From the NCBI GenBank assembly GCA_022605425.2, contig CM061248.1, positions 682,001 to 746,000 of the forward strand: a DNA stretch of 64,000 bases, read 5' to 3'. Every line of letters begins with the position of its first letter. The stretch's first letter is position 1. The stretch comes from Hamiltosporidium tvaerminnensis (taxonomy: Eukaryota; Microsporidia; Dubosqiidae). Of the stretch, positions 3,720 through 56,484 are shown piece after piece. Position numbers and translations under genes: made by a program. Below the pieces are notes generated by a model. The model saw only the letters and a program-made list of their open reading frames with translations. It did no database searches and had not been told where the DNA came from.

Positions 3720-3944
3720 ATTTCATTCTCTTTTACCTCTCGGTTTCGAGGATGAACAACTGGAAATTTTCGAATTGTTTCTTTTAATATGTTTTAACTC
3801 AGGATTATAGCGGATTGGCCTATAAATCAAATGTAATTTATATCCCACCAAAATGTATGACAACGATTTTCACATCAATTTTACACACTCATTGCTAAGC
3901 AGATATTTTTATTGTGGTTATCTTCTCTCCACCCTAAAATATAC
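3720..3944 (-). repeat. Family B dispersed repeat, short form
   Basis: On the minus strand it begins AGGGTGGAGAGAAGATAACC, the head shared with family A, continues through ATATAAATTACATTTGATTT and GGCCAATCCGC, and ends with CGAAACCGAGAGGTAAAAG followed by an A/T-rich AAGTAATTAGATAAGTAA tail. Compared with 35845-36255 it lacks the central segment. Confidence 0.8.
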
Positions 3945-6900
3945 AAAATATTTAAAAAACAGTCACTAGTCTGCTAAGTGTTCTAAAAAAACGAAGAGAT
4001 CTTTAGGCAGAAAGTTAAACATTTTCTTAGTGCGAAAATGATTTTACTTTCAAGAGGTCGATAATCAATATGTTTCGTTTTTGCGTAATTAACAACATAT
4101 ATCGAGCATACTATAAAAAAGAGTACGTTGTTGCATATATCAGTGATTCTAAAATATCTGTATGATTCACAAAAATACTATGATATTCTCAAAGCTTAAA
4201 AAGGAGAAGATGTTTAATCTTGTGGAATATGCGACATATTCATTGCTTTGAAAACGTTCTAGTCGAATATTAAACCATCTTAGTAAAAACATGAGCTTTT
4301 ATTAGACCATGAGAAACCGGGAGTTACAGTGACCAAAAAAATCAACTTTGGTGCTTTCCCAATGTATTTGTCCCATTTATAAAATATTAGAGAGTTTTAG
4401 GTTGACAACTTAGACTTCCAATTTCGACAAAAGACTAATTCAAATTTTGTTTGATAATTTTGATGTCCATAAAAATATGACTTGAAATACGCTGTAAATT
4501 CAAAAATATATTTCTTGAAACTTATTTCATCAAATTCAGAACAAAATTATACATAGAAGACCATTTGATACAAAAGCTTAATACCAAGACAAACGTGTAA
4601 ATTAGATCAAAAGGAGCTATTGAACTAATAGACATACAATCCAGGTGAAAAAAATATGAAGAGAGTCTCATAAAGATGTTGTTTAAAAATATGGCTTTAT
4701 ATACAACAAAAATTATCTATATTATGCTTCTTTTCAGACAACCAGGTTTTAATAATCTAATTTCTAGAAGTATAACAACCAAAAACAAAGCCTGTTTGAT
4801 GGTATATATCCGAATCGGATAAATCCCTGTCCCTTGATAAGAAATGAAAGTATGTAGAGAAATGTGTGGTTTTTGCATATAACTCCTCGCTCTTCTTCTG
4901 TTCTGTTGTAAGGCTCTCGGATTTATATTTCGGTCAGTTTCAAGCATATTTTTTTAACGGATTTGAAATTTATTCTCTTTAAATGTTTTATTTTTTCTTT
5001 AAATCTCTAATCGACTAGATCTTAAGAGGAAATGTGTTTCTTAGCAATTATTAAAACTGAAATTCCTGATAAATATTAGGAAGCATAAAGATTCCATCGA
5101 TGCGCATTAAATGTGTTGAAAGAGTAACTCTTAAAACCATCATATACTTATAATAATTGTTGCGAATATAGCTCATAATTTTTTAATCATAGAAAAAAAT
5201 TACCGAGAATATTTTCGAATTGCATCCCAAAACATTTATCCATTAGAAGCCGACTCTTCCTAAAAAACTTAAGAAATGGGAAAAAAAGACTGAAAAAGCA
5301 CAATGTAACTTCTTTTGCTTCAATAAAACTTTTCTATTGCCCGTTATTTTGATTAAAAACATGTTTAAGTAAAAATTTCTGAATCTGACAAAGATTGGTT
5401 TTAGAGGCAAAATAAAACATATTTACATCCAATGGTTTTTAAATTGTAATATTCCATTTTCACATTGTCAAATTTGTAAAAATCCACCTTATTTTATATA
5501 TTAAAGTTTTAAATTATTTTTTTTGAGGTCATATATTTATCAAAAGTATATAAGCGTGTTTCGGCTTGGATCGCTTGAATTTAAGGGAGAAATTGATTCT
5601 TTTTATAAATGCCCATAGTTTGCAAAGTCGAATCAATTGAATATTAAAAGAAAATTTATAGAGTAGCTTAAAATAACCAGGGTTCAAAAAAAATGGTAGA
5701 AATAGTGGAGGATATAAAAATATATAAGAAATATGAAAGAAGGGTTATAATAAATAATGGAGGTCCTAGCAAATGAGCGGTTTATCAAACCGTGATATTT
5801 TATATTAACGTGACATGCGAATTTTAATATTGTCTGAAATAAAATATTTATTACAGTTTTATAAAAAAATGAGAATACCTAGGTATAAAAGACACTATTT
5901 CATTAGATAATACGTGTTTCCTCTATGTGATTCCGAGGATTTTTCAGTTTGTTTAGATTAGTTTTTATAAAAATGTCTGCAAAACTAACAGGTATTTTTT
6001 TCATGTATCTTCTGCAACTTTTAATTGAATCTGTTTTATTTTACATCCGATTTTTTTAATTCTTATTACCTTAAAGATATATTATCAATTGCACTAGGAT
6101 AGGAGAAGTAAGTCGGGTTTTTTAATATTCGATTTCGTTCTTTTAAAAAATACTTTTTGTATGCCATGCTGTATTGATAGATGCGTTATCTTGTTAACAA
6201 ATTACATTTCGATTTATTAAGATTGAGTATAATTTAAAACGCTTTCAACGAAAAGGCAAATATATCATTCAGTATCTAATTTAGTTCCAATGATAGAATT
6301 TTTTTACTTCATTTATATGGTACAAATACAATACTATGATAACGCACCACAAAATTTTTTGGTCTTAATTATATTTGTAAGTTTGACTCTTGCGCAGAAA
6401 TCGCAAAATTTCCGGAATCATATTATTCCATGTATTTTGAATCGACAACCATCCTAATTATGAAAATTCCGAATTTATTTATGGTAAAATTCTTCACATT
6501 TTTGCAATTTCTACTCGTATCACCTTGTGTCTAGGATAAAGGAAAAACTTAAAAGGTAGGCTGGTGTATACAAAACCACTATTCCGAAGAATGCGATTAA
6601 TTTCTCATTGATATTCATTCTTTCAGCCTCATAAATTTTCTCAGAGAACTTTTTTGACGATAAATTAATATTTTCTAGATAATTTATTTGAAATATTCGA
6701 TTTGAGATATTTCGAGGGCTTTTTAAGCAGTAAACTATTGAAAAATATTACATTCTTTGTTTTAAAATTTTTGGATTATTTTTAGCATCTTTCTCCGAGA
6801 AATTACGGTTTTTAATAATTTCATTAACTAAAATTTTTCTATTTTAAATTCTAATAAAAGCATTTGATTTGTGCTCTAACTGTGAGGATCCAACGGAAGC

Positions 6901-11417: not shown

Positions 11418-12133
11418 TGTGGAGGAAGGATAACCACATAAAAAACTTTCTGCTTGGCAATGAGTGTGTGAAACTGATATTAGGATCATTGTTTGAATTT
11501 TTCGTTTGAATGAAACCCTACTATATCTTCGGTTGTTCTGTGAGAGTTGTTATGAGGAGTGGTCTACGAAATAGCGAAACCTTTTCTACGAATTTATTTT
11601 AGTTTTTTATGTAACCAGATTGCAGACCGCAGCTGACCTCTTAGGTAATTACCATGTAAAAACATGGAAACCTAGCCTTGCTCACTCGAATTAGTTGACT
11701 TAGCGTCTGGGCGATATAAAAATAAAAACAACTAAAAGCCAGGAGAGCTAAGTAGCAGGTTATACCTGTTGGTATGACATTGCACTATCTAGGTGGGCCC
11801 ATGTAAGTCTCTGAAATATATCTTAGCTAGAAGTTTATTGGGTTCAGAAAGTGTAGAGTAAGTGCAATGCCGCATAGTCTAGGGGGAGCCCAGGGGGCTT
11901 CGGCCTTCGATCACACTCCATGCAACGAACATTAACGAACTCCGGACAACTGCCTCGCCTATTAATTAGGTTCTACACACCTGGTAGATAATGCTTTGAA
12001 ACGTAGGTATCGCAGGGGATACTGATGGAGTGTTGGGGTAGCATTATTTATGTTTAAACTAGAATTGTGTAAATGTCATGAAAACGAATGTAAAGCTTGC
12101 CACTGTTTTAAAAAGATGTGATACTTTTAAATA
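11418..12133 (+). repeat. Family A dispersed repeat, near-complete copy
   Basis: It runs from GTGGAGGAAGGATAACCACA to GTGATACTTTTAAATAAA, about 716 bp, and is clearly more GC-rich than its surroundings. It contains the perfect hairpin CCATGTAAAAACATGG (11652-11667), the block AGCAGGTTATACCTGTTGGT, and GGGGGAGCCCAGGGGGCTTC. It aligns over its full length with 47134-47873 on the other strand. All frames are broken, so it is a non-coding, presumably non-autonomous element. The mechanism is unknown: the ends are not TG...CA and no terminal inverted repeat is seen. The 3' end contains AATAAA. Confidence 0.85.
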
Positions 12134-13194
12134 AATACTATTTTTCCATTCATTTATCTTGAATACAAAGAACATTTAAGCAAGGAACTTGTTTTTTCTT
12201 AACCAAATAGAAATCAAGTTAAAAACACTTATATATCTATAAATTTAAATTTAAAACCAATAAAAATATATTGAAATCTGATTGAAAAATAGTGCGAAGT
12301 TCAGTTTTTAATGACAAAAATGAAAAAAGTTCCAAACATTGTTTGAAAAAAAACTATGAGTAATTGATACATATTTTATTATTCATTTGAAATAGTTCTT
12401 TGTGACTGAGCTGTTTAGATTCACCATGTATTTTTTATCAAAATACCTGTTCCCGTAAAGACTGTATTGTTGTAAAAAGATCAAGTGAGCTAATTTCGCC
12501 ATTTTATTGATGTTGGAGTTAGGTTAAAAAAAATCACCAGTATTAAATTCTCCAAGAACGTTTGTTTATTTCTTCTTCTGTAATTCAATATTTTAGCCTT
12601 TAAATTTATTGCCGACTTAAAAGAAAATTTTCCACCATTTTGGTATTAAAAGTTTTGTGTTCGTCGTAGAAAATTTTGGCCAAATATTTTATTATCCTCT
12701 TTTGAAGAATATAAAAGCTGGCTCATTCTATTCTGCATTTCATCTTCATAACTGCCGAATTACTTCAATAGAAGATCCTGCTTATCTTTTTTAGTTATTA
12801 TGCTTCTATTATGGAAACCGCTAGAATATGTCGTTGAAGAAAAACAAGAAAATATGTTTGGTTTCTTCTTTATGTCTTTACTCAAAAAACCACATCTTTT
12901 TTAAACCTAGGTATAAAGTATATTGTTTTAATGACATAAATACCTTTCAATGTTTGATATGTATAAATTCACCCTAATACTTCATTAATATCACCTATAA
13001 TACATACAACATTAAAGTTTTCTTGTACATGTATGCTAGAACACATTTCATGGGCAGCTAGTGCACATATTTTGTTAATATCAGTCGATTGGAATTTGAT
13101 CACAAGTCTAACTAGCTGTGGGCACCCAAAATCAGCAAGTTCCTATTACTTTATACATTTTTAAACAAATATAAATCTATTTAAGATATATTTA
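12134..13194. other. AT-rich stretch without a recognised gene
   Basis: Nothing supported is seen between two family A copies. Confidence 0.4.
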
Positions 13195-13385: not shown

Positions 13386-15145
13386 ATTATATAATGAAAC
13401 TACAATTTTTTTTGGAAAAATGAAAGTTGTCAATAGAAAGATCAGTACATGTTTAACTGATCCTAAAGCTCTAAAGATACTTATTGTTTGTTTAAATTAC
13501 ATTTAGAATCTAAAAAGATGGATTTTTTTTGATAAATGTATTTCCTGAGGTATACACAAGATAGATAAATAAATATTTTTAGCAACTTTTTTAATGTATT
13601 TTGGCCGATAATTTGCAGATTGAATTCTATGCATGCTTTGAAGTCTTATAAACACCAAATTTGTATTTTTGTAATTCATACCATTTCTGGCAGCTTAAAA
13701 TGTGCATTTAATTTATTTTGATGTCTCACCACTTTTAAATTCCTAGTATACTCGATCAAAATTTATAATTCGAAAACGATTCGATTTAATTTACGAGTTT
13801 TTTCAATAAAATATAATCTATATGCAAACTAAAAATTATGCTTTCTGCCGGAACACTATAATTTCTTTTTTATATAACTAGCTAGAATTATCTAGTTTTT
13901 GATATCATCGTTTGAAACCATGTGTTTTTATCTATTTTTACAACTTAAAATCTTTTAAATTGTGTTTTTTATACATCCACTAATATATAAAATAAAAACA
14001 TAGAAAAGAAAGATAAGAACTATGCGATAACCAAATTTGTATAATGTTTTATCTTGTTTAGATCCAGTATTTAGAACTTAATAATACTTTCTTGATTTGT
14101 AAAGATTAACAAAAAAAACTAAAAACTGCAAAATAGAATTTAAAAGCATTTTAGTTAAAAGTGTTGTATACAGAACTCACTTTATACATTGTTTACTAAA
14201 AAAAAATAATGCATAGATTCTATGCAATCCCGACAACAATTGATAAAATTATAGAGGTACACAATTTTTTTTTAAATTAAAGAATTGGCAGGAAAACAAA
14301 TTTTGAGGATCAAAATTTTTTTTCTGAAACATAAAACAACTCGGCTCGTCTTAAGAACTGGGATGACACAATTGAACAATCAAAATTCGTTAAACTATAG
14401 ATTTGAAGACAACTAAGTTTTTTTTTAAAAATATTAAGATCCTGATGTTCATTGTAACGAATTCGGTTTTTAAGTTGAGATATTGTCATTTTGGAAAGAG
14501 ATTTTATCAAACAAAAATACAAAGAAAAAAACATTATCACGTCTCATAACCTCCCCAGAGGCACTCAGATAAAAGGTATCCTTGATGGAGGCATGTTCTA
14601 TCCTTCGAATTAAAGGAATTTTCAACCCTTGTAACTAAAGAGTTGTTTTCATTAATGAAAGGATTGTACAATTTATTCCAATTCTTTGTTTTCCTTTCTT
14701 TCGTATTGGGGTTTTTATAAGATATAATTTTATAAGGGAATCCAATAACTCATAATTCTGTAGTTGAATACTAAACCACGTTTTGAGCTGTTAATTGACT
14801 ATCTTTGATCTTCTTGATTGATATTCTTTCACCTCAAATTAAATAATGAAGTGGTATTATGGAAAAAATATCTTACAAACGATCAAATGTAGAGCGAATT
14901 TCGAATAAATCAGTTAAATTTAACTTATTTATAGTATATTATATTTTGTTTTTTTACTTTCTATTTTATTTTACAGGATTTGAATTTTTATTATTTTATT
15001 GGTAGTTGAGTTTCTTATGGATAAATATAACACCATACATTTCTTATTATTATTTTAGGTTTTTTTAAAATTGAAAATATTGAAAAAAATAGGTGAATAT
15101 TAAATAATTAACATAATATACATTCAATTACTAATATATCTTTTA
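13386..15145. other. AT-rich stretch without a recognised gene
   Basis: No supported gene or repeat is seen. A minus-strand frame of 76 codons (14310-14540) shows no motif. Confidence 0.4.
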
Positions 15146-15563
15146 ATGGGTAGAAAGAAAAATTTTAGAAACGAAAAATCAAAAAATACTAAAATAAAGG
15201 CTGTAAACGACGCTGATGAGGTAAAGAAACGTGATAGTGGCAAACAAAAATCTTAGCTACACCCATTAGCGATTTTCCAACCTTCCTCCTCCTATACAAA
15301 AATAACACATCCACCACAGCCAAACATGCAGTAACAGGCAAAACAGTGAGCTTGACACCTTACCTTCGGCTAAACCACCCCTTCCCTCTTCGGTTGAAGT
15401 CTCTGCGTGCGAGCCATCTTACGAAATGACAAACCCCTGTGCTCGAGCTATTCCGGAGGTAACAGGCTAATGGCATTGCGGACGATATTCGATTCTGTAA
15501 GACCCGACCCGAATGAATGGCCTCGAATTGTTTTTTTTTGCAGTATAGACAAGTTTCGAAAGA

Positions 15564-16781
15564 ATGCCAAGAAATGGCTGGACAGAGCTTCACATGTACT
15601 ATAATGAGAAATTCGGCTGCACTGAAACTCTCGAAGTGTTAAAAAAATTGGCACAAAGTGAGATGGGAAAGGAATTAAAATCAGAAGAGAATGGAGAGCG
15701 ACGTAGAATCGCCATTTGTCTCGCTGATACATGCACCTTGACCGACACCACAGAGTACATAAACCTGAGAGATAAATTCTTGAGTAAAATCAAAGAAATC
15801 TCGATGAATGAAATTGGAAAAGTGGTGGTCCGAACTAGAAAACATCCAAATGAATTGGTTGATAGTAAAGTTCTGGATCTCATTAATCGAGAAGTCTATG
15901 AATATGCCGGAGCTCATGTACCTGAGTCAATTACGGAAGCCGCGTATATCATGCAAGCCTCGCAGGTATGCTATGATGAGGCAACACGTAAAGAGAAGCC
16001 TAGATTTGCTTGGAAGGAAAACATAGAAAGTAGAATTTCTGAGTTAGTACTTTTAAAAAATCTTCTCGAGAAGGCTCGTAAGCAGGAAAAGCTCTACACT
16101 TCGGAAGCGAAGAGCCTTAAGAAAACCATGCGAGAGTTTAATTTAAACTTGAGCAGCGTAACTGATCTTTCTGTGGCTTTAGTTAAGAAGAATATGTCTT
16201 TGAATGTTTACGAGAAAAAAATTACGATGTATGAAAGTAGGAAGCAATTCCGAAAAGAGAATCGTATGTTTGAGCTTTTCCGAGGTCGATTTTATCGTGG
16301 ATTATCTGAGTGTGTAGAATCCGAGCATGTGGTTAGCCGTGATGAAATTGTGAGTTTTTGGTCTACAATGTGGAACAAAAATGATGACACGGTCACGTAC
16401 GATGATTATTTGATTCCATTTGTATCAGATAATCATCCGACCACGTTTCCTTCACTTGATGAATTTGTAAATATCATTAATTGGCTTCCTAATTGGAAAG
16501 CTGCTGGAATTGATGGTATTTACAATTTTTTCATTAAGAAACTTACAACTCTTCACAAATATATTTATGACATTGTGAAAGTTATAGTTTTAGAAGAAAC
16601 ACCTCAAGCTGATTGGTTTTACTACGGGCTTACCTATTTGATATCCAAAGGAAGTCCACAAAGAGGCTCTGACTATAGGCCAATCCCTTGTATGTCCAAC
16701 CTCTACAAGTTAACGACTAAGTGTGTAACGAAAGTCGTTCAACTTGAGGTGGAAAGGCGAGGGTTGCTTGCAGAGAACTAA
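15564..16781 (+). pseudogene. LINE reverse transcriptase, N-terminal part
   Basis: This open frame carries the N-terminal domain and the first RT motifs: NWKAAGIDGIYNFFIKK, then DYRPIPCMSNLYKLTTK, typical of the R2-like RT region (RPI...LYKL). It has no ATG of its own that is convincing: the true ORF came from upstream, where the frame ending KKWLDRASHVL (to 15604) overlaps it in another phase, so a frameshift lies near 15560-15600. It ends in a nonsense codon at 16779-16781. The same frame continues beyond the stop with GAVRGVQGAKEQALLN and WIDVKKAYD, containing the first catalytic Asp. Confidence 0.85.
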
Positions 16782-17470
16782 TTAGGGGCGGTAAGAGGTG
16801 TGCAGGGAGCGAAAGAGCAGGCTCTACTGAATAGGTCCTTAATTAAAGAGTACGGAAACAATCTTAAGGCAACATGGATTGATGTTAAAAAAGCTTATGA
16901 TTACACAGATCAAGCTTATTTAATTTCATGTATTAAACCCTTAATTTACCTCATTGGATCCTGAAATTTATTCAGGTAATTATATCAAAATGGAAAATTG
17001 ATATATCAGTAGGGCCTGAAAAAATCATGAGCAAGAAGATTGAGAGAGGGATTCTGCAGGGAGATAGTTTTTCAAAATTGTTATTTGTGTTGTGTATGGA
17101 TCCATTAAGCCGAAAGCTTAATGAAAAATACACAAAAGTAACAGTACAAACAGATGCAGAATCCCATTCTACTAATCATCGCTTGTTTATTGATTATATT
17201 AAGCTCCTTGCCAAAGACAGCTTCACATTGAATGCTATGACAGGCGAAGCAAAGGAATTTTTAGAGGTCATTGGCTTAGAGATTAACAAAGAGAAGTTAG
17301 CCACAAATGATACGTGTTGTGAAGATACTGCTACTCTTCTAGAAGGTGTTAGTGTTTACAAATATTTAGGAATAATAGAAGATAGCAGAGGAATCCCAAC
17401 ACGTAGCTCATTTGAAGAAGTACAGAGCAAACTTATATCAAGAGTCAAAGACTTTGTCACACTAGATTAA
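16782..17470 (+). pseudogene. LINE reverse transcriptase, catalytic part
   Basis: After the stop at 16781 the RT continues to about 16950, then shifts frame and is open from about 16950 to 17470: ERGILQGDSFSKLLFVLCMDPLS is the RT finger-palm motif. The box that should read F-x-D-D is FIDY (17189-17197): the second catalytic aspartate has become tyrosine, so even a restored frame would be inactive. VYKYLGI is the following conserved segment. At about 17447 one A is missing compared with 33632-33640, which ends the frame at 17470. Confidence 0.85.
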
Positions 17471-17951
17471 ACGCAAAAAATTTATTTTCTGCAATCAATC
17501 GACATGCGATATCGTTCATCAACTATCATATAAGAGTGCTTTGACTTGAACCGGCGTACTTCTCTAAGTTAGATGATGCAGTGCGTGCGGTGTCGGTGAA
17601 GATTACGATACATCTTCGCTCAGGATGTAAAGAGCGATTGTATCTACCTAGAGAAGAACTTGGAAGAGACCTAAATAGTGTTGATTTGCGAAGCAAACAT
17701 ATACTTCTGCAGTTCTTGGATCGTCTGGAAAAAAGTTAAGAAATATCAACTAGAGGAGCAGCAATCCTCAATGTGGAGAAAAATAGTAAAACACATCTTG
17801 CACCAATAGAAGGCTTCTTAAAAGTAAAGTACAAGTTGGTAGAAGAAGTCACTATGAAAAGTTTAGAAAAGCTCAACTTGCAAAACTATATAACGAAATA
17901 GAAAAACGAGAACTCCATTCAAAGTTATATAATGCAAGGAAAAATGAGCTT

Positions 17952-18730
17952 GTGAGTGTTAGTGACTCTTCAAGATGGCTAAAGAGAGGAAATATTAGGC
18001 CACGAAATGAAGCTGTGTTCTGCTATATTCAGTATAGAAATGTATTCTGGGGAGCAGATGGTGTGTGTCAACATTGCGGGAAGTCTGGTAAGACTGTGGA
18101 TCATCTAGCAACTAGATGTAAAAAAATGCTAGGCCATGATTACACTAGATTGCATAATGAAGTGGTGGATGCCTACAACTACTTCTCCTAAATGGATATA
18201 AGTTTAAGTCTTTAAAACGAATAAGGAGCCACTCAGTTCAAGAAATTCTTGATAATGAGTATTCAGAGATAAGAGTCGACACCAGAATTAAAACTGATGT
18301 TAAAATTCGGAATAACAGACCAGACATATTTATTTTAGATAAGAAGAAGAATAAGATAACACTCATTGAAGTAGCAATCACTTCCCAAGATTCACTTCAA
18401 ATAGTTGAAACTGAAAAACTTAGGAAATATGACCTGCTAGCCAATGAGTTAGGTCTTATTTATAAATGTAGTGTTGAGATAATCCCTTATGTGATGACCT
18501 GGGACGGTATTGTGACAAAATACCATAAATCTCATCTTAAAAGACCAGAAATACCCATGAATGTAGAAGCATACATTCAGTCTATAGTACTTAAGAAGAC
18601 GGTCGAAACAATTTCCTTTGATCGACGAAGAGGACTTGAGTCAGGACTAAATGCCGAAGAGAGCTGGGAGAGAGCGTCAATGGGTGTTATTATGAGATCA
18701 GAGATGCATGAGGAACCAACACTCCTTTAA
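17952..18730 (+). pseudogene. LINE C-terminal zinc motif and endonuclease
   Basis: The segment 17952-18191 encodes the CCHC motif C-x2-C-x7-H-x4-C (18066-18119). A one-base deletion relative to 33506-35118 (GTGGTGGATG for GTGGTTAGATG) moves the rest to another frame, open from about 18180 to 18730: RSHSVQEILDNEY, RPDIFILD (RPD at 18317-18325) followed by TLIEVAI, the expected PD...E core of the R2 endonuclease, then VMTWDGIVTKYH. The end is a polar, acidic tail, itself truncated by a frameshift compared with the 33506-35118 copy. Confidence 0.85.
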
Positions 18731-18950
18731 AAGAAGCGAAGAGAGAAGAGGATGGTGCAAAAAAATTTAAACCAAAAAATAATACAACCCTATTTCACGA
18801 GGAGGAACTACTTTAGAGGAACCGACCACCAATAACATAAATGAAAAGTCGAATTTGGAAGAAGAGACAGAAGTGGTTTAAGAGGCAGAAGAAAACATAA
18901 AAAAAATTGTAAAAATATTTTAACGCAGAATTTTATTAAATAAAATCTTT

Positions 18951-19960: not shown

Positions 19961-21709
19961 CACCCTCTGTCCGGAAATATGGTATATATTTTAGCGATTT
20001 TTTTGTCCTGAAATATGGTATACATTTGCGAAACAATAAAATATTCAAAAAATGTAGATTACAAGTTTATTATATTACCTTTTTCGAACGTTTTAATAAA
20101 TATTAATGTAAATATTAAATAAAATTTAAAAAAAATATATATTAAAATTAATAATTCATTCAAAATTTGATTTGCTTTAACGTATTCTTCTTTGGAACAT
20201 ACATATTTTTCTAGCAGTCGACCTTTGCGACGAAGTTTTCCTTTACATAAATGCAGTATTTTATACCATTTCCGCCATCTGCTAACATAATTGACTCCAT
20301 ACATGCTTGCAATGTTGTAAAAACGTTATCGAGAGTATTCGCTTCTAATTGAGGAAATGCATCTTAAACACAATTTATTAATTCGTCAATTGTGTGTGGC
20401 GAAGCTTCATATTGCAGCGATTGTATGGAGTTGAAAAAACCTAAATCAAGAACATTTAAATAGAAGCTATTTGCCGGTTGCGCCTTAAATTTAATATTCC
20501 AGTCATCAGCAGAAGCAAGAGCGACAATATCTGCATCATTATCAGAAAAATGGGGTTTTGCATTGTCTTGTTGTACGTAAATTGTTTTCTTTTTGTATGC
20601 TGGCGGAAATTTAGATTTAATTGCGAGAATTACATTATCAATGATCATGTTTTTGCAATGTACTGCTCTAACAGATATACGATTTTTTGTTATCTTTCTC
20701 TTTAGCCCTATTCTTAGAATTTACTTGAGTTGGTTCTTAATAAACAAATGGCCATATTCCAATTTTCCCATCAAAATGAAGCCTTAGATGTGCATCATAG
20801 CGTGCTCGAGCTACTGCAGCCATGAACATTATTTTCGTAAAAAATTACATACTTTTGCAGTTTCTCTCCGGTTTTTCTTCGTTTAACATTAATTTATAAG
20901 AGCGCTTAACTTTAGTTAGATAAAACCACTTTTTATTAACGTGAACGTAGTCGTACAAATCATCAAAAAGCGATTATCCATTATTAGCAAGATTTTCTTT
21001 AGACAAGCAAAATTTCAATCTGTCCATTTTATTTTTATCTGTTAAAGTTGGTTTAACTGTAGAAGATATTCTCTTGATATACTTTCCCGACTTGAATATA
21101 TCAAACAAAGTCTATTTGGAATATCAATTACAAAGTAAAGACTGCGGGGCGTTCCTCGACGATTTAATGGTGTATTCTTTATTTGCGCTAAATTGTTCAA
21201 ATATTCTTTAGGTTTTCTTCGTCATCTTTTTTTCTTTTTTGAAGAAACATCGGCATATATCTTGCCTTTTCTGTATTAAGTTTGGGCTGCATGCCAAATT
21301 CTGCTAAATTTTAGCCGGGAAACTTGAAAGGCAGAAAAAACTTCGTTTGGGGCACCGTGATTTAACTTATTCTCCTTAATCTGCTGTAATAATTTTTCTA
21401 GAATACCTTGACGTTGTTCTTTGGGTAACTCTTTATATTTTGAATCTCTTTTTTCTAAATTCAACAAATTTCCTTCCACATTTTCCATATTCGTCTTGTA
21501 GCGGTACTAATTTTTTTTACCTTAAGAAACACTGATTTTTGAGCGGTAACTTTTTAACTAAGAATGATATTACTAAAGTCAAATATTTTAGGTTATATTG
21601 TCATGAATATTTACTATGACAATATCATGACGGTTGCCTATTTATTTTTTATATTTACGATAATCTACGGTTTTTTTGAAATGTATACCATATTTCCGGA
21701 CAGAGAGAG
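19961..21709 (-). mobile_element. DD39D mariner (plant/oomycete type), complete but inactive
   Basis: The element has terminal inverted repeats CACCCTCTGTCCGGAAATAT (19961-19980) and, on the other strand, CTCTCTCTGTCCGGAAATAT (21709-21690), continuing into GGTATA in both, with two mismatches in 26 bp. It is flanked by TA on each side (19959-19960 and 21710-21711), as expected for Tc1/mariner. Length is 1749 bp. The left end carries a second, internal copy of the TIR core (TCCTGAAATATGGTATACAT). The interior holds one broken transposase gene on the minus strand. No deleted (MITE) copy of this element is seen elsewhere in the window. Confidence 0.93.
20340..21488 (-). pseudogene. Mariner transposase, DD39D, decayed
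   Basis: It starts with an ATG at 21488-21486 (MENVEGNLLNLEKRDSKYKE), an N-terminal DNA-binding region that stops after 70 codons. Beyond the stop, pieces of the family are readable in changing frames: a DVSSKKKKR block, DDLYDYVHVNKKWFYLTK, FMAAVARARYD and FDGKIGIWPF. The last open part (20648-20364) has the second catalytic Asp in VQQDNAKPH (Asp near 20566) and the third in LNVLDLGFF (near 20446), separated by exactly 39 residues. The first catalytic site, normally D-E-K-W, reads N-K-K-W. Nonsense codons, frame changes and this substitution mean it is dead. Confidence 0.9.
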
Positions 21710-24599: not shown

Positions 24600-24610
24600 G
24601 GCAAAACTAT

Positions 24611-24834
24611 TATTATTTAATAGCTCGCCTTTTCTCTACAAATGGAACACAATCCAACGATGAATTATAGCTTGGCAAAGTTATAGGCGGTTAAAGACAT
24701 TTTTATTCTGATAGGTTAGGTTATCAGCCACACGCAAACATTTCTGAACGAAAGATAAAGAGTGCACCAACCGGAGATCAAACCGGCCTTTGGAAGCAAA
24801 TTCCGATATCCTAACCACTTGACCATTAGCGCGA
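24611..24834 (-). mobile_element. tRNA-derived SINE, copy 1 (with 11-bp target-site duplications)
   Basis: Direct repeats GGCAAAACTAT at 24600-24610 and 24835-24845 bound a 224-bp unit. On the minus strand it opens with a tRNA-like head (24832-24764): GCGCTAA pairs with TTGGTGC over seven positions (two G-U), TGGTCAAGTGG fits the RNA polymerase III A box and GGTTTGATCTCC the B box. An anticodon-like arm (TCGGA...TCCAA) has one mismatch and a pyrimidine after the anticodon position, which a working tRNA would hardly have. The head is followed by a non-tRNA body (CACTCTTTATCTTTCGTTC, then CGCCTATAACTTTGCC) and an A/T tail (TTAAATAATA). The same head and body recur at 46486-46702. It would rely on a LINE for mobility. 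Confidence 0.88.
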
Positions 24835-24845
24835 GGCAAAACTAT

Positions 24846-33505: not shown

Positions 33506-35118
33506 GTATGGATACTGCTACTCTTCTAGAAGGTGTTAGTGTTCACAAATATTTAGGAATAATAGAAGATAGCTGAGGAATTCCAACACGTAGCTCTGTT
33601 GAGGAAGTACAGAGCAAACTTATATCAAGAGTTAAAAGACTTTGTCACACTAGATTAAACGCAAAAAATTTATTTTTCTGCAATCAATCAACCTGCGATA
33701 TGGTTAATAACTACCACATAGGAGTACTTCGACTCGAACCGGCTGACTTCTCTAAGTTAGATGATGCAGTGCGTGCGGTGTTGGTGAAGAATAAGGTCAT
33801 CTTCTTCCAGGCTGTAAAGAGCGTTTGTATCTTCCTAGAACAGAACTTGGAAGAGGCCTACATAGTGTTGAGTTGCGAAGCGAACATATTCTTCTGTAAC
33901 TCTTGAATTCGTTTGGAAAAAAGTAAAGAAATATCAAGTAGACGAGCAGCAATCCTCAAGGTGGTGAATAATAATAAAATCCATCTTGCACTAATAAAAG
34001 GCTTCTCAAAAGCAAAGTACAGGTTGGTAGAAGAAGTCACTAAGAAAAGTTTAGAAGAAGCTCAACTTACAAAACTATATAACGAAATAGAAAAACGAAA
34101 ACTCCATTCAAAGTTATATAATGCAAGGAAAAATGAGCTTGTGAGTGTTAGTGACTCTTCAAGATGGCTAAAGAGAGGAAATATTAGGCCACGAAATGAA
34201 GCTGTGTTCTGCTATATCCAGGATAGAAATGTATTCTGGGGAGCAGATGGTGTGTGTCAACATCGCGGGAAGTCTGGTAAGACTGTAGATCATCTAGCGA
34301 CTAGATGTGAAAAAATGCTAGGCCATGATTACACTAGACGGCATAATGAAGTGGTTAGATGCCTACACCTACTTCTTCTAAATAGATATAAGTTTAAGTC
34401 TTCAAAACGAATAAGGAGTCACTCAGTTCAAGAAATTCTTGATAATGAGTATGCAGAGATAAGAGTGGACACCAGAATTAAAACTGATGTTAAAATTCGG
34501 AATAACAGACCAGACATATTTATTTTAGATAAGAAGAAGAATAAGATAACACTCATTGAAGTAGCAATCACTTCCCAAGATTCACTTCAAATAGTTGAAA
34601 CTGAAAAACTTGGAAATATGACCTGCTAGCTAATGATTTCGGTCTTATTTATAAGTGTAGTGTAGAGATAATCCCTTATATGATGACCTGGGATGGTATT
34701 GTGACAAAATACCATAAATCTCATCTTAATAGACTAGAAATACCCATGAATGTAGAGGCATACATTCAGTCTATAGTACTTAAGAAGACAGTTGAAACAA
34801 TTTCCTTTGATCGACGAAGAGGACTTGAGTCAGGACTAAATACAAAGAGAGCGTCATTAAGTGTTATTATGAGAGCAGAGATGCATGATAAACCAACACC
34901 ATCTTTAAAAGAAGTGAAGAGAGATGAAGATAGTGTTAAAATTTTAAAAACAAAAAATAATACACCCCATATTTCACAAGGAGGAACCACGTTTGAGGAA
35001 CCGACCAATAAAATAAATGAAGAGTCGGATTTAAAAGAAGAGACAGTATTGGTTAAAGAGGTAGAAGAAAACATGTAAAAAATGGTAAAAATATTTTAAC
35101 GCAGAATTTATTAAATAA
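33506..35118 (+). mobile_element. R2-type LINE, 5'-truncated copy
   Basis: It starts abruptly inside the RT (ATACTGCTACTCTTCTAGAA, corresponding to about 17325 in the long copy) and runs to the same 3' end (TTAACGCAGAATTTATTAAATAAA). Identity with 17325-18950 is high by eye. 5' truncation is typical of LINE retrotransposition. No clear target-site duplication was found. Confidence 0.88.
33700..35078 (+). pseudogene. LINE thumb, zinc motif and endonuclease, broken
   Basis: Open pieces: 33700-33906 (RT thumb, FSKLDDAVRAVLVKNK), 33913-34629 and 34680-35078. The middle piece has the linker, the zinc motif with its second Cys replaced by Arg (CQHRGKSGKTVDH), and the endonuclease RPDIFILD...IEVAI. 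A small deletion at about 34610 (CTTGGAAATATG where the long copy has CTTAGGAAATATG) ends the frame, and the rest is read from 34680 with VTKYHKSHL and a Lys/Glu-rich tail. The TTG or ATG starts are not real starts; this is one ORF's remains. Confidence 0.85.
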
Positions 35119-35844
35119 ACAATTACTAATATATTCATTTTATAATCTTCATACTATTACCCTAATAAATAATTTTCTAAATATTTTGCTTAGTTATGTT
35201 ATCTGCTTTTTTTACAAATTTTAAGGATAAAAGTTAGAAGCTGAACCATTCAAATAGCTTATATATAAAAATTAAGTTATTTTCGATCCAATTTTTGCTT
35301 AAAATACCATAAATTACCACATAGTAAGTTATAAATACTACAATTATTGTAGATAAATTAGATTAAACCACATAAAATATCACAAAATTTATCATTGAAA
35401 TTCATTATTAAAGAAAAAGCAGTAAAATACATTTTGGAAAATTCTTGTAAAAATATAAAACATTAAACAATTTCGAATTCTTTATACATATGAATAGATA
35501 AGTAATTATTGTGACTAAAAATAGGCACGATCTGTGTAAAATTTGAGATAATGTTTTAAAAATCATGAATGTAGAAAGTTTTTTAAAACCGCCTATATAT
35601 TTCTAAGGCAATTAGATATATTCAAATAGAGGGAAACTTAATTTAATAAAAAAAATTGAATCACATCATTAGCAATTATTTTATAGAAAGATCATTAATT
35701 TCTTGAATAAGTGCTAGAATTAAAAAAATAAATCCTCGAGGAAAAGCTTTACGAGTATTATTTAAACCCTGTGAACAAATAAGCTTAAGATTGTGATTTT
35801 CCTTAGACGATTTAAATTTCAAAGAATTAAAACATAATTAAATC
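35119..35844. other. AT-rich spacer
   Basis: Nothing recognised. Confidence 0.4.
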
Positions 35845-36255
35845 ATAATAGGTATAGAGAGGATAACTACATCAAAAATCATCTGCTTGACAATGTATGT
35901 GTCAAGTTGGTATGAAAATAATCGTTGAAATTTTAGTAGATTATAAACCATACTTGATCTATGGGATGATGCCTTATAATCCCGAATTACAACGGATAAA
36001 AAGAACATAATATAAAAATAAAGAACTTTCGCAAAAATCAATGGCTTGGTCGTAATGATGACCATGACTTATGCAACACGAAAGTAGGAGTTTTGGCATT
36101 GAAAATAAAAAACCTGTGAATTTCGAAGGTATTTGACTCCTTAAACCGGCTTTCCGCAAAAAAGAGTTTACCAATATAACATTTTGAGATGACCAGTGGC
36201 CGAATACTTTGGCGTTAAATCTGTTCATCCTCAACATCGGGAGGTAAAAAAGGAC
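35845..36255 (+). repeat. Family B dispersed repeat, long form
   Basis: It opens with the shared head (GAGAGGATAACTACATC...ATCATCTGCTTGACAATG), continues ATTATAAACCATACTTGATC and TTACAACGGATAAAAAGAAC, then holds a segment of about 210 bp absent from the short forms (with CTTAAACCGGCTTTCCGC), and ends CATCGGGAGGTAAAAAAGGA. The long form recurs at 58995-59412. The minus-strand frames over it are by-products. Confidence 0.75.
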
Positions 36256-36634
36256 TGTAATATCTAAGCATAATAAAATATTTGGAATTTCTTATCATGT
36301 AATTTTCTTATAATATGAATCATCGTATACAAAAACAAAATCATTAATAAGTTAAAATACTAAATTAGGAAAATGAATAAAATTCTGCATTATTATGATA
36401 TTACAAAAAGTTTATGTTACTAAAGCTAGTCATTCATAATGTGAGCGTAGTCAGTGATATTTGTGTAAGGATTTGCAAATTTTGAAATTTAGAAAGCTAA
36501 AATGCAGTGTCAGTCAATATATAAATCAAACGTTCATTTTTTTTATTTAGTATTAAGGTGATAGCCATTTATTTATTTATGATGATGAATTTTTTTAAAG
36601 ATAAATTAACTTTCGAATCGAAGTTATAATACTT

Positions 36635-36866
36635 CTTACTTGTTCCTTTCTCTTTTACGTCTCGGTGTCGAGAAAGAACTACTGGAATTCTCCAATTTCT
36701 TCTTTTAATCTGTTGTAACTCGCGATTATACGGGATGGGCCTATAGATCCAGTTTAGTTTATATCCCACCAAAATGTATAACAATGATTTTCTCAACAAT
36801 TTTATACACTCATTGCCAACGAGATAGTTTTTAATGTGGTTATCCTTTTTCACCTTAAGTTATGAT
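36635..36866 (-). repeat. Family B dispersed repeat, short form
   Basis: On the minus strand: AAGGTGAAAAAGGATAACCA, the CACTCATTGCC-type block in complement, TATAGGCCCATCCCGTATAA, TTACAACAGATTAAAAGAAG, CGACACCGAGACGTAAAAG, and a tail AACAAGTAAGAAGTATTATA. A 94-codon frame (36569-36853) spans it, but other B copies have this frame broken, so I do not call a gene. It lies in inverse orientation about 380 bp from the long form. Confidence 0.8.
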
Positions 36867-38454
36867 AACAAAATAAATTTTTTCCAGAAAAACGAATAAA
36901 AATTTCGAAAAAATTTAACTAAAAAAGCATAAAAATAGAAGTAGTTGTACCAGACAAGTCTTAAAATTGTCAATACACTGTTTTTTTGCATAAACCTATA
37001 AAATTATCAGATCATTTAAATATAAATTAATAAAAGATTTTGGATTTTGGCTTATATTTTAAGTAATCATATCAACAAATACATACTATAAAAAAAGACT
37101 GATTATTTGCTAAATCAATCTATTTTTTTCTCCAACATCGGCTTTTTCAAAGAATATATTTTTAAAAACTAAATGTAGTTTCTAAAATTGTGGTTTCAAT
37201 CTTTAATTTATCCACTGAACTTTGCAAAGATCAAATTATATCTAGAGGATATTGATTAAAATTTAGAAGTAAATCATAGACAATTATTTTTGATAGCAAC
37301 CTATTCTTCAGTTCCAAAAATAATTTAAAAAATTCTGAAATTTATTATAAAAAAATGTAAAACCTATCATTTAAATTAAAAAAAAATTTAAAAAGTCCAG
37401 AACCAATAAATAAAAATAATAAATGAAGTAAAAATTACCATCAAAATTAAAAAATGATAAATCCTAGAATTTATTTAAGGTTTAAAAACATGAAATATCT
37501 CGTATTTCGAATGTCGATTTTCTAGTAAACTCTATTATATTTTCAAAAAACAGTGTAATATAAGGAATAAAAAAAGATATTTTATGTATACAGAATCAAG
37601 AATGGATATAATTTCTGAGCAAGCAATATAATATCGATAGAACGAATAAATAGCAATGTTAAGAAAGGTTACTGTTAAAAAAATTTAAAAAATCCCGATT
37701 TAATTAAAAAATCATAGCATAATATTCAAATTTGCAAAGAAAGCGAATTGAGATGTTAACAATAAAAACATGGTTCTATTTCTATTATTCTACGAGGACG
37801 GAATTATTAGTATATTTACCTTGAATAATAACTGCATATTTTAATGAATATATAATCATCTTTGTAATATATGCATCATAATTTACATTTTAGCAAAAGA
37901 GACGATTATAAGTCTATTTTGCAAATATTATTACCTTTTATGTATTTTCTTGAAATTTTAGTAAAAATATTATAAAGTTAGATTATATTTTATTCGTTTA
38001 TCTATGAGCTTTTTGACATACATTTAAATATATAAATCCTGAATGATATGGCGGCGTTTATGAAGTTTGCAAGAAAAAATTGTTTGAAAATTAACAGTAA
38101 ATGTATCAGCTAAAAATTATACATGAAGGAAAGACACCATAACTATTTTAAAGACAAGAAGTAGGTTAAATGTGCCTTCCACTTCCTAGATTTATTAAAT
38201 ATTTAATAAACATTCAAGTAAAATGCAATAATTTATTAAAACTTACGCAATATATATTTAAATCAAAAAAAACTTATAGTTACTTATCATATTTTTTGAA
38301 GATCGCGAAGCTATATAAATTGGATCATGAAGTAATAAATGGAAGATAGTTCATGTGTTCAATCGAATCGTGATTTTTAAACAATATATTCATGAAGCTA
38401 TGTAATAAAACATAAAAGAGGAAATCAAGCATGATTTTTATTCAAAATATTACA
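36867..38454. other. AT-rich stretch without a recognised gene
   Basis: No feature could be supported. Confidence 0.4.
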
Positions 38455-46244: not shown

Positions 46245-47065
46245 ATGATTTAAACCCCCACTTCATTTTCGGTTGATCTATGAACTATTGTATAAAAGGC
46301 AAGGGGTCTAATAATGGTAAATCTTTCCCACAAAGTTAATTTGTAGTCTTTATATAACGAGATTGGATACATAGCTGAAATTTTGGGAATTACAATATAA
46401 AAGCATGGAAACCTAGTTTTAATCACTATGGTTAGAAGAATAGGTGCCTGGAAGATACCAAAATAAAACCCTTCAAAACCAGTAATCTGCGCGAATAATC
46501 TGGTGTTGAAGATATCGCAATATACTTCCAAAGGCAGGATTTAATTTCCTGTTAGTTCACTTTTTATCTTTCGTTCGAAAGTTTACGTAAAGCTCAAAAC
46601 CTAATCTATCAAAAGAAAATTGTCTTTGGAACGCCTATAACTTGGTGCAGCTTTAATTCATCTGTGGATTATATTCTATCCGTAGGGAAAGAACAAGCTA
46701 AAAAATCCAGTAAAGCTAAATAGCAGGTATTTTTGTTAGATGGCATTGCATTTTCTAGATGGGGTTTATCTAAGTATTCGAGATATATCTTAAAGGATAG
46801 TTTAAAAGCTTCTGAAGATGTAAGTTAAGTAGGAATTCTGCTAAACTTTGGAGAGCCTAAGACGGTTTCAAGTGCAATCAAACTCCGAAAAACGAACTTA
46901 GGCTACTTCCGGACAACCGCTTCGGTAATTTAATGTGTTCTTCAGAACTTTTTAATAAAGGGCTTTAGGTGTATTAAAGTATACAATGGTTTGTCGGGCA
47001 AGCCGTTATCTATTCTAATTCGGACAGCGTTAATAAATTTCATATTTCAAAACGCCCCCATTTTA
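46245..47065 (+). repeat. Family A dispersed repeat, decayed, interrupted by a SINE
   Basis: The plus strand shows TTCGGTTGATCTATGAACTA, AAGCATGGAAACCTAG, then the SINE (46486-46702), then AGCTAAATAGCAGG, GGCATTGCATTTTCTAG, GATATATCTTAAAGGATAG and CGGACAACCGCTTCGG, in family A order, ending near GCGTTAATAAATTTCATA. Substitutions are common. The next A copy lies only 70 bp away in the opposite orientation, so the two are tail to tail. Confidence 0.78.
46486..46702 (+). mobile_element. tRNA-derived SINE, copy 2 (nested in a family A element)
   Basis: The 217-bp unit matches the copy at 24611-24834: head GCGCGAATAATCTGGTGTTG, the anticodon-arm equivalent TATCGCAATATACTTCCAAA, GGATTTAATTTCCTG at the B-box position, body CACTTTTTATCTTTCGTTC, CGCCTATAACTTGGTGC and TGTGGATTATATTCTATC, end AACAAGCTAAA. 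Near-identical direct repeats AAAACCAGTAA (46475-46485) and AAATCCAGTAA (46703-46713) flank it. The A-element sequence continues on both sides, so insertion site and boundaries are certain within a few bases. Its A and B boxes have drifted more than those of copy 1. Confidence 0.85.
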
Positions 47066-47133: not shown

Positions 47134-47873
47134 CAAGACTTTATTTAAAAGTATCACATCTTTTTAAAATAGTGGCAAGTGTTATATTTGTTTTTATGAC
47201 ATTAACGCAGTTCTAGGTTTGACATAAATAACTGCTACCCCAAAACTCTATCGGTGACCCCTGCAATACCTACGTCCCAAAGCCTTTCATTTACCAAGTA
47301 TGTAGAACCTAATTAATAGGCGAGGCAGTTGCCCGGAGTTCGTTAATGTCCGTTGCATGGAGTGTGATCGAAGGCCGAAGCCCCCCCTGGGCTCCCCCAA
47401 GACTATGCAGCATTCCCACTTACTCTACACTTTCTGAACCCAATAAACTTCTAGCTAAGATATATTTCAGAGATTTACATGGGGTCCACCTAAACAGTGC
47501 AATGTCATACCAACAGGTATAACCTGTTACTTAGCTCTCCCGGCTTTAAATGATTTTTTATTTTATATCTCCCATGGCGCCAAGTCTTCTAACCCGAGTG
47601 AGCAAGGCTAGGTTTCCATGTTTTTACATGGCAATTACCTACAATTTCAGCTGCCGCCTGCAATCTGGTTACATAAAAAAACTATAAATATATTTGTAGA
47701 AAAAGTTTCTCCATTTCTTAGACCTCTACTCTTCATAACAACTCCCATGGAACAGCCAAAGATGTAGTGTGGTTGTATTCCCACCAGAAATCCAAACAAT
47801 GATCTTCACACCAGTTTCACACACTGATTGCCAAGCAGAAAGTTTTTTATGTGGTTATCCTCCCTCCACCAAT
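47134..47873 (-). repeat. Family A dispersed repeat, best-preserved copy
   Basis: On the minus strand it runs from GGTGGAGGGAGGATAACCAC to AAGATGTGATACTTTTAAAT and AAA, about 740 bp, with the hairpin CCATGTAAAAACATGG (47631-47616) and CATAGTCTTGGGGGAGCCCA. Identity to 11418-12133 is high in the distal half. Every frame contains stops. No clear target-site duplication. Confidence 0.87.
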
Positions 47874-49003: not shown

Positions 49004-50542
49004 TTAACAATTTTTACTCCTTTTTATTTTTTTATTAAAGATAACTAAAACCAATTGAAAAATACTTTAAGCAATAAAAATAAGATAAGTTATAAACACC
49101 AATAAATTTAAAGATAATACTTTTTTAAAAAAATACTGGTTACAATTAATTATCATAATCTTTATATTTGTAGTTTATTGATAGTTAATAAGTTAAAATT
49201 TATTATTTTTTTAAATATTGGTATTTATAGGATATTTAATTTATTTAATTATAATGATAATTATAAATTTAAATTTAAATTCTAAGTTTGATAATATTGG
49301 TGTTTATATTATATTTTGTTATTTATATTTGTTAATATTTACTTTAGAACCATTGAAAATATTATCAAAAAGTCAAGAATTTTTTTCGTGTTTTCTATTA
49401 TCTACAAAAGTTATATTGTACCATCAATAAATGAATTAAAAAAAGGAAAAATTAATGGTTTCTGAAAAAAGAAAATGCAATTAATATTTTGTGGTAAATT
49501 AAAAGAAAAACCTTGATATTTAATTCAAAAAAATTTCTTGTTTATTTATTATATTTAAATACATGGATGTTATATTTAATTTATAATGTATTTTTCTTCT
49601 GAAAAAATATAAATAAAAAAATCTATGATTATTTATAAAAGTTGTGTTATATTATATTTTAAATAACGAGTTTTATATAAAAAAATATTTTTGTAAGAGA
49701 CATTCCTTTTTAATATTTTTTTTTATTTAAATCATTTTTTGTATAAAATATTTGTTATAAAAATTATTAATTAACTTTTTTTGTTAATTTTTTTTAAATT
49801 TTATAAAAAATATTTTTAATAATATAATATAGATTCTATATATTTTGAAAAAGAAATCCATCCATTGAATCAAAATATAAAATAAAGTGTCAAATATAAA
49901 ATAACTTTCAAATATAAAATTACTTTAAGTAAAGAATAGAAAGGTTGTATAGACAAATAAATATGAAGAAAAATTAACCAAATGAAATAAATTTTATTAT
50001 TTAATTAAAATTTTTAGAAAAATATGAAAATTTTACAATATAAGATATATATTAAAATATAATTACTGTAAATAATTTTTCTTTACAAATTATAAAATTA
50101 CTGTTCTTACTGTTTGAAGTGTAATGTTAATAACTAAATACATTTGAACAGAAATTTTTTTGTGTATTCGGCTCAATATAAAATATAGAGAAATATGCGT
50201 TTCAATTTATTTTACCTTGGTTTTCAAATTTTATATTACGTTAAGCAACCATCAATTTAATTAAGAATTTGATATTTTTAAATATGTACGAACTTAATAA
50301 ATGGAAGGAGAGGAATGATTGATACAAGGAATTTGGATGAAGCCACGATTGAAATCTAGAAATATTCAATTAAATATTAGCCTTTATATATTTCAAGTAT
50401 CAAAATTTTTAAGAATATACGCTAATATAAAATTTATAGAATATTTTTTCAATCTACAAAAAAATTTAAATGGAACACCTAGTGAATATAAAATTAAATT
50501 AATAATATCTTATGAGGAATTTTATTTTTATTCTTTTGTATT
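49004..50542. other. Very AT-rich stretch without a supported gene
   Basis: A 58-codon frame from the ATG at 49254 (to 49430) is hydrophobic and could encode a small membrane protein, but has no CCC motif or homologue; I do not call it. A 94-codon TTG-opened frame at 50319-50603 runs into a family B repeat. Confidence 0.4.
49870..49927. repeat. Short tandem repeat, about 19-bp unit, three copies
   Basis: TCAAAATATAAAATAAAGTG, TCAAATATAAAATAACTT and TCAAATATAAAATTACTTT follow one another. Simple AT-rich tandem duplication. Confidence 0.7.
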
Positions 50543-50775
50543 TTTATTGGTGAAGGATAATAACCACATTAAAAACCATCTGCTTGGAAATGAGTGCGTA
50601 TAATTGGGCAGAAAATCATTGCAGTCATTAGAGTGCGATATAAAACACACTGAATACATAGGCCAACAGCTTATAATCACGAGCTACAACAGATTAAAAG
50701 AAACAAATTGAAAACTTTCATCTGTTACTCCTCGACATCGAGAGGTAAAAGAGGAATCGAATAGGCAAGCAAGTA
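50543..50775 (+). repeat. Family B dispersed repeat, short form
   Basis: Head GGTGAAGGATAATAACCACA, then AACCATCTGCTTGGAAATGA, CATAGGCCAACAGCTTATAA, CTACAACAGATTAAAAGAAA, CGACATCGAGAGGTAAAAGA, and tail AATAGGCAAGCAAGTAATTA. The central segment of the long form is absent. Confidence 0.82.
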
Positions 50776-51359: not shown

Positions 51360-51372
51360 TTTAACAAACATT

Positions 51373-51664
51373 TTAATTAAAAAAAATTCTCGGTTAAAAT
51401 ATTTTTACGATTTTTATGCATTTTCTTCTACCTCTTTTACCACTGTTGCTTCTTCTTCTAAATCCGACTCTTCATTTATATTTATCGTGGGTTCCTTTAA
51501 CGTGGTTCCTCCTTCTGAAATAAGGGGTGTATTATTTTTTGTTTTTAAATTTTTTGCACATTCTTGCTCTCTACTCGCTTCTTTTAAAGGTGGTGTTGGT
51601 TTCCAATGCATCTCTGCTCTCATAATAACACCCATTGGTGCTCTCTCCCAGCTCTCTTTGGCAT
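51373..51664 (-). mobile_element. R2-type LINE, short 5'-truncated copy with target-site duplication
   Basis: On the minus strand it begins ATGCCAAAGAGAGCTGGGAG (corresponding to about 18652 of the long copy), encodes only the polar C-terminal tail (a 73-codon open frame at 51635-51414) and ends AAATATTTTAACCGAGAATT plus an A/T tail. It is bounded by TTTAACAAACATT (51360-51372) and TTTAACGAACATT (51665-51677), a 13-bp duplication with one mismatch. Confidence 0.9.
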
Positions 51665-51679
51665 TTTAACGAACATTAA

Positions 51680-55890: not shown

Positions 55891-55894
55891 TTTT

Positions 55895-56114
55895 ACATAT
55901 TCCATTCAACTTTTACCACTCGGTGTCGAGGATGAACAAAGGAAAGTTTTCAAATCAGGTTCTTTTAAGCTGCTGTAATACGAGATTATGGGGAATTGGC
56001 CTATGGATCAAATTGGTTTATATCCCACTAAAATAGAAACAGTAATTTTCACACGATTTTATACACTCATTGCTAATCAGATAGGTTTTAATGTAGTTAT
56101 CTTCTCTCCACCCA
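55895..56114 (-). repeat. Family B dispersed repeat, short form
   Basis: On the minus strand: GGGTGGAGAGAAGATAACTA, AACCTATCTGATTAGCAATG, GGGATATAAACCAATTTGAT, CATAGGCCAATTCCCCATAA, CAGCAGCTTAAAAGAACCTG, CGACACCGAGTGGTAAAAGT and GGAATATG. Complete short form. Confidence 0.85.
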
Positions 56115-56484
56115 ATAATTTTTTGAACTGGTTAATCATATAGTAGTTGGTAAAAAAAATTATCCTGAAATTACACAATAAAAATTTATATTGAAATCAT
56201 AAAAACTTTATTATCATTTTTTTAAAAAAAGAGATAATGAATAATCAAACCTGAAAATTTTTTAATCAAAATAAAAATTCCAAGTATAAAAATACATAAA
56301 TTTTATACAATTAAAACATTTTTACATTCATTTTAGTTCAATAATTTTTGATAAAATTATTGCGGTTTTTCAATTTATATGAAATAAATAGCAATATAAA
56401 AAAAATGTGATAAAAAGTATTTTTAACTTTATTATCTTATAAAAACAAAAGAAAACATTTATATTTTTGTTTCCTGATACAAAA
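56115..56484. other. AT-rich spacer upstream of a small gene
   Basis: No feature beyond AT-richness; no CCC motif close to the ATG at 56485. Confidence 0.4.

Follow-up and report, generated by a model that had tools for sequence, protein, structure and literature searches.

Two copies of one short element in the window

The window, i.e. the whole stretch of 64,000 nucleotides of Hamiltosporidium tvaerminnensis DNA analysed here, holds two units of one short element, at 24611-24834 on the minus strand and at 46486-46702 on the plus strand. Both had been proposed from an inspection of the letters alone (the sequence-only reading), and both were confirmed at these places. The same inspection had recognised a microsporidian-type genome, in agreement with a dimethyladenosine transferase that is 100% identical to that of Hamiltosporidium magnivora (276 residues) and about 60% identical to that of the next named microsporidia. 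An 18-base rRNA primer pattern had no exact match, which for a single pattern is no argument against a microsporidian.

Copy 1 (24611..24834, minus strand) was delimited by own-genome search and alignment. It comprises a tRNA-like head that begins at 24832, a body, and an A/T tail that reaches 24611. Alignment to the genome's own tRNA genes placed the head at 24764..24832 on the minus strand, with an acceptor start GCGCTAA at 24832, an A-box-like stretch (24825-24815), a B-box-like stretch (24784-24773) that exceeds the consensus box by one base, and an acceptor end TTGGTGC (24770-24764). The target-site duplication ATAGTTTTGCC is found on the same strand at 24835..24845 on the 5' side and at 24600..24610 on the 3' side. 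Copy 2 lies at 46489..46706 on the plus strand with its head starting at 46489, and is more decayed (K2P distance of 0.213 from the consensus). Its direct repeats, AAAACCAGTAA at 46475..46485 (5' side) and AAATCCAGTAA at 46703..46713 (3' side), both read on the plus strand, are identical at 10 of 11 positions. The two copies share 75.9% identity over 220 columns, and the B box is degraded in both.

These units had been described as lying at two unrelated loci. Each does carry its own direct repeats, but copy 1 sits in a duplicated segment: the five places of its group (L001-L005) are 95.9-98.5% alike over about 3.1-3.2 kb, flanks included. This points to a single insertion that was later copied together with its surroundings, so that the near-identity of these places is not evidence of recent activity of the element. 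Altogether, flank comparison revealed five flank-sharing groups among the places of the family (L001-L005, L012/13, L082/83, L089/90 and L097/98).

A dispersed family with a common 5' start

A search of the whole assembly and a consensus, both called for by the sequence-only reading, were carried out on the 21,638,905-base genome. The family occupies at least 70 distinct places on 16 of the 17 contigs, a lower bound because only the best-scoring candidates of each search were retained. These places were pooled from searches with copy 1 (best 40 of 105 first-look candidates scored), with a majority sequence (best 40 of 155) and with the 3' half of the element (best 40 of 109 candidates), from a conserved 30-mer with 35 genome matches at up to three mismatches (none for the reversed control), and from one place found by the tRNA search. 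A profile of the element gave 79 hits, reduced to 52 after removal of identical or doubly fetched places (L002 included). When four tRNA genes and seven flank-sharing places were set aside, 41 independent copies remained, 35 of which start no more than 8 bases away from the first consensus base; the other six, whose 5' end is short by more than 8 bases, were left out of the duplication test described below.

The consensus is about 226 bp long, a length that should leave it without protein-coding capacity, and runs from GCGCCAATGG at the 5' end to CTATTAAATAAATAA at the 3' end. Three observations had been named in advance as fatal to the proposal of a SINE family. When they were looked for, the copies proved to have duplications and a common start, and the unit was not part of a larger coding element. 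We conclude with high confidence that this dispersed element, which includes the unit at 24611-24834, is a tRNA-derived SINE, i.e. a non-autonomous retroposon.

A tRNA-Glu-like head joined to an unrelated body

Judged by sequence similarity, the first ~72 bases of the element, its first third, are tRNA in origin. Of 51 tRNA matches in the genome, 30 loci were compared with the head; the best was tRNA-Glu(UUC), identical to it at 59 of 74 columns, and the next other isotype by score was tRNA-Gly, at 51 of 74. The tRNA-Glu(UUC) gene is present in two identical copies, and a DNA query with it returned nothing else from the genome. Predicted A and B boxes, assigned by the usual box consensus, lie at positions 8-18 and 51-61 of the consensus of the element. 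Two heads, those of L087 (38.3 bits) and L105 (31.7 bits), exceed the Rfam tRNA cut-off of 29, while a separate Rfam scan of four SINE loci matched the head in L087 only. In the 64-kb window, neither ARAGORN nor Rfam at its gathering score found any tRNA, the heads of copies 1 and 2 included.

The head is predicted to fold into four arms. Its folding energy is unexceptional, as 16 of 200 shuffled sequences fold equally well, and by itself is thus no proof of a tRNA-like structure. Acceptor pairs 1 and 3 have changed on both sides relative to the tRNA gene with pairing kept, from T-A to G-C and from C-G to G-U. The predicted fold of the whole element is unremarkable (z -0.96). Low-scoring tRNA-like matches were also seen at L102-L104 (G000:C4 at 489027, 503099 and 517206), about 14 kb apart; these are not copies of the element, and ARAGORN calls a tRNA-Ala in one of them and nothing in the other two.

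Downstream of the head, the same body of about 140 bp recurs across the 41 independent copies and is constant in every copy that reaches it. It matched no tRNA gene in hand, the tRNA genes covering at most positions 2-79 of the consensus. The longest T run in the consensus is three, without any run of four. Divergence from the consensus is somewhat above the base-corrected expectation in the head (448 against 395.8) and below it in the body (693 against 746.1).

Target-site duplications, empty sites and 5' truncation

A look for duplications around all copies had been proposed. For this, the highest-scoring repeat directly next to the 5' end was taken for each of the 35 copies with both ends. 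In 16 of them the score was at least 8, and in eight at least 10; among 1190 mismatched flank pairs, 4.0% and 0.4% reach these scores. The summed score of 251 exceeded the maximum of 206 obtained in 20000 permutations. Duplications thus occur above chance and are clear in 16 of the 35 copies, the other 19 having no clear one. The 16 clear cases are 8 to 14 bases long, 14 of them falling between 11 and 14 and the others measuring 8 and 9. Twelve of the 16 start with AT, at an edge that is blurred by the A/T tail.

The sequence into which copy 2 inserted is itself an old repeat copy; other copies of this ~730-bp repeat are seen at 47140-47869 (plus strand) and 11419-12135 (minus strand). Four paralogs of this repeat, namely L051, L035, 47390..47727 (minus strand) and 11513-11825 (plus strand), were aligned and contain the target once, without the SINE; a fifth, L041, was left out of the alignment. 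A further empty site was found for L099, a copy 5'-truncated to about position 58 that lies antisense within a LINE copy: in the paralogous stretch of the LINE, at 34518-34906, the SINE is missing and the target is single. The third candidate, L095, gave no clean alignment. Hits crossing the insertion point came from four of the 41 query copies, and those of L029, which consist of its own flank and 41-base matches, were left out of the alignment.

Target-primed reverse transcription is known to leave 5'-truncated copies that still carry duplications. The duplications of the six 5'-short copies (more than 8 bases missing) were read by eye: L096 and L099 each carry an exact one of 11 bases or more, that of L097 agrees at 11 of 13, L028 has one of seven bases, and L089 and L092 are ambiguous. 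The architecture first read from two copies, that of a tRNA SINE, is therefore borne out across the family by the tRNA head, the unrelated body, the common 5' start, the duplications, the empty sites and the 5'-truncated copies.

Other repeats in the window

Another short repeat, some 215-240 bp long and also dispersed, was seen at 3720-3954, 36634-36874 and 55892-56119 on the plus strand and at 50529-50770 on the minus strand, with a partial copy at 35845-36006 (minus strand). The genome contains 861 first-look candidates, of which the best 41 were scored. No tRNA-like head was visible by eye and Rfam gave no match; three of eight copies reach a duplication score of at least 8, against 1.8% of 56 mismatched pairs. 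It is possible that this repeat represents another SINE-like family, more abundant than the first. The last ~100 bp of the ~730-bp repeat are common to it (36745-36846), giving short and long elements with a common 3' end. Finally, a DNA transposon remnant, mariner-like by eye, lies at 19968-21702 and has the inverted ends TGTCCGGAAATATGGTATA (19968-19986 and 21684-21702).

An abundant LINE ends in the same 11 bases

The window also contains three copies of a LINE family. The longest one, at 15143..18946 on the plus strand, has a broken reading frame and carries the 3' terminus TATTAAATAAA at 18934-18944. A second copy (33511..35119, plus strand) is 5'-incomplete, 91% alike, and also ends in TATTAAATAAA; a third, a 3' fragment at 51366-51666 on the minus strand, is 82% alike to the longer copy and has a deviating terminus. 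Among the best 41 of 1198 candidates in the genome, 28 matches end at a position equivalent to 18943-18947 of the window. Pfam and PDB searches with the window reading frames recognised a partial reverse transcriptase only. By eye, the protein shows a CCHC motif with a PD..E motif behind it, a candidate endonuclease of the PD..(D/E)xK type as it follows the reverse transcriptase in LINEs with a restriction-like endonuclease (R2/R4-like); Pfam hits in this region were below cut-off and PDB gave no match. Relatives of this LINE were found in Vairimorpha apis and Astathelohania contejeani. Among the best 150 of 456 reverse-transcriptase candidates, the genome holds several types, and 48 have frames longer than 1200 residues, perhaps not all of this family.

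The terminal 11 bases of the SINE consensus are identical to the LINE terminus TATTAAATAAA, in register at both ends, although this match is short and made of A/T only. The 11-mer is kept exactly by 16 of the 41 SINE copies. Ten distinct LINE ends were compared; five have it unchanged, even in copies whose likeness drops to 70-77% (L047 and L008), and five deviate. The 11-mer is otherwise rare, with 11 occurrences in 312,428 positions, LINE ends included. The 14-base end of the SINE has 27 exact hits in the genome, 19 of them at listed SINE places; the other eight do not adjoin a reverse transcriptase (by eye, with the best 150 reverse transcriptases listed).

Mobilisation by a LINE, as already suggested from the two window copies, is likely as far as anatomy can tell, from truncations, duplications and a shared terminus. 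Since both elements end in the same 11 bases, the abundant LINE, or its ancestor, is the likelier if unproven partner, a reading we hold at slightly better than even odds. The SINE may instead have depended on another LINE family, since lost or lying outside the loci in hand, with the common A/T terminus a matter of chance or convergence; we give this about one chance in three. The diversity of reverse transcriptases speaks for it, as does the contrast between old SINE copies and a LINE family much of which looks young, judging by the long frames. It is weakened by the in-register match at both termini, by the rarity of the 11-mer elsewhere, and by the 14-base hits outside SINE places, none of which lies beside one of the best 150 reverse transcriptases.

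Age, origin and alternative explanations

Copies of the SINE differ from the consensus by 7.5-21.5%, with a mean of 15.0% (K2P, n = 41), and the changes are mostly towards A/T. When 153 pairs of variable positions were compared, the best p value was 0.006 and no pair was linked after correction, so that no clear subfamilies emerge. This divergence and the absence of linked positions fit one old burst from one or few source genes. The sequence-only reading had proposed that an active family existed in this lineage. This holds for the past; the burst is old and present activity shows no sign.

Other origins for such a family were weighed. Short, dispersed, non-coding elements with direct repeats on both sides could also be derivatives of a DNA transposon (MITEs) that resemble a tRNA by chance. 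This is very improbable, as reading the ends of the consensus revealed no terminal inverted repeats, the duplications vary in length, 5'-truncated copies exist, and the head is a tRNA both by similarity and by covariance model. It is even less credible that the copies are merely parts of larger duplicated segments without mobility of their own. Such duplication does account for the five flank-sharing groups, and hence for the spread of copy 1, but as a whole explanation it is refuted for the family by 41 copies whose flanks are unrelated and whose duplications are their own, and by the clean empty sites. That the element came from Daphnia, the host, or from some other organism and then spread is improbable, albeit less so. 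Microsporidia and animals have been reported to exchange transposable elements (PMC4202319), but the tail is that of a LINE of the parasite itself, and the head is nearest to the tRNA-Glu(UUC) of the parasite, the 30 tRNAs compared being all from the parasite.

A tRNA-derived SINE is the best explanation. Its founder would have been a tRNA-Glu-like head with RNA polymerase III promoter boxes, fused to ~140 bp of unrelated body sequence that closes in a short A/T stretch. RNA polymerase III would have made the SINE RNA, the 3' end of which may have been bound by the reverse transcriptase of a LINE and copied elsewhere in the genome through target-primed reverse transcription. The family would then have spread in an old burst and decayed since. 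The complete proposal, of a first SINE family described in Microsporidia, one that arose in this lineage from the organism's own tRNA-Glu gene and moved with the help of a restriction-like-endonuclease LINE recognising little more than an 11-base 3' end, is put forward tentatively, and we think it rather more probable that some part of it will fail.

Microsporidia are a textbook case of genome reduction, and their large-genome species carry many repeats. This family suggests that the pairing of LINEs with SINEs, a two-level system, was present there as well. Its insertions, for which the direction of change is known, could mark Hamiltosporidium lineages, and through the short common terminus, the way in which a microsporidian LINE recognises RNA becomes open to experiment.

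Comparison with known systems

The H. tvaerminnensis assembly (Angst et al. 2023; 21.64 Mb, 17 contigs, N50 of 1.44 Mb, 26.6% G+C) was described with 25.45% of 'other' interspersed repeats (PMC10542269). The main texts of PMC4202319, PMC7313128, PMC12449221, PMC13174016, PMC12558613 and PMC10542269 nowhere use 'SINE' as a whole word, and none of the titles and abstract starts listed in a search of openly accessible papers describes a microsporidian SINE. An automated fungal survey includes a SINE class and may hold undescribed labels (PMC12543289). The mechanism belongs to a known class; the host group is new as far as these searches reach.

LINEs, by contrast, have been described in the same phylum, with four families in Anncaliia algerae (PMC4202319) and abundant Dong-R4-type elements in Microsporidia sp. 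MB (PMC13174016); such elements could supply the enzyme but, unlike the SINE, are autonomous. Genomic tRNA genes and pseudogenes resemble the SINE over its first ~72 bases, and tRNA genes match its first ~79 bases only, whereas the SINE copies carry the constant ~140-bp body. A close likeness, by description only, is to the tRNA-derived SINEs of filamentous fungi as summarised in PMC5063351: Mg-SINE of Magnaporthe (472 bp, ca. 100 copies), Foxy of Fusarium (ca. 160 copies) and AfuSINE2 of Aspergillus fumigatus (140-493 bp, duplications of 4-14 bp). These have in common with the present family a tRNA head with boxes, an unrelated body, duplications and a low to moderate copy number. The Hamiltosporidium element differs from them in belonging to another phylum, in its tRNA-Glu head, and in its tail ATTAAATAAATAA, which is common to a local LINE.
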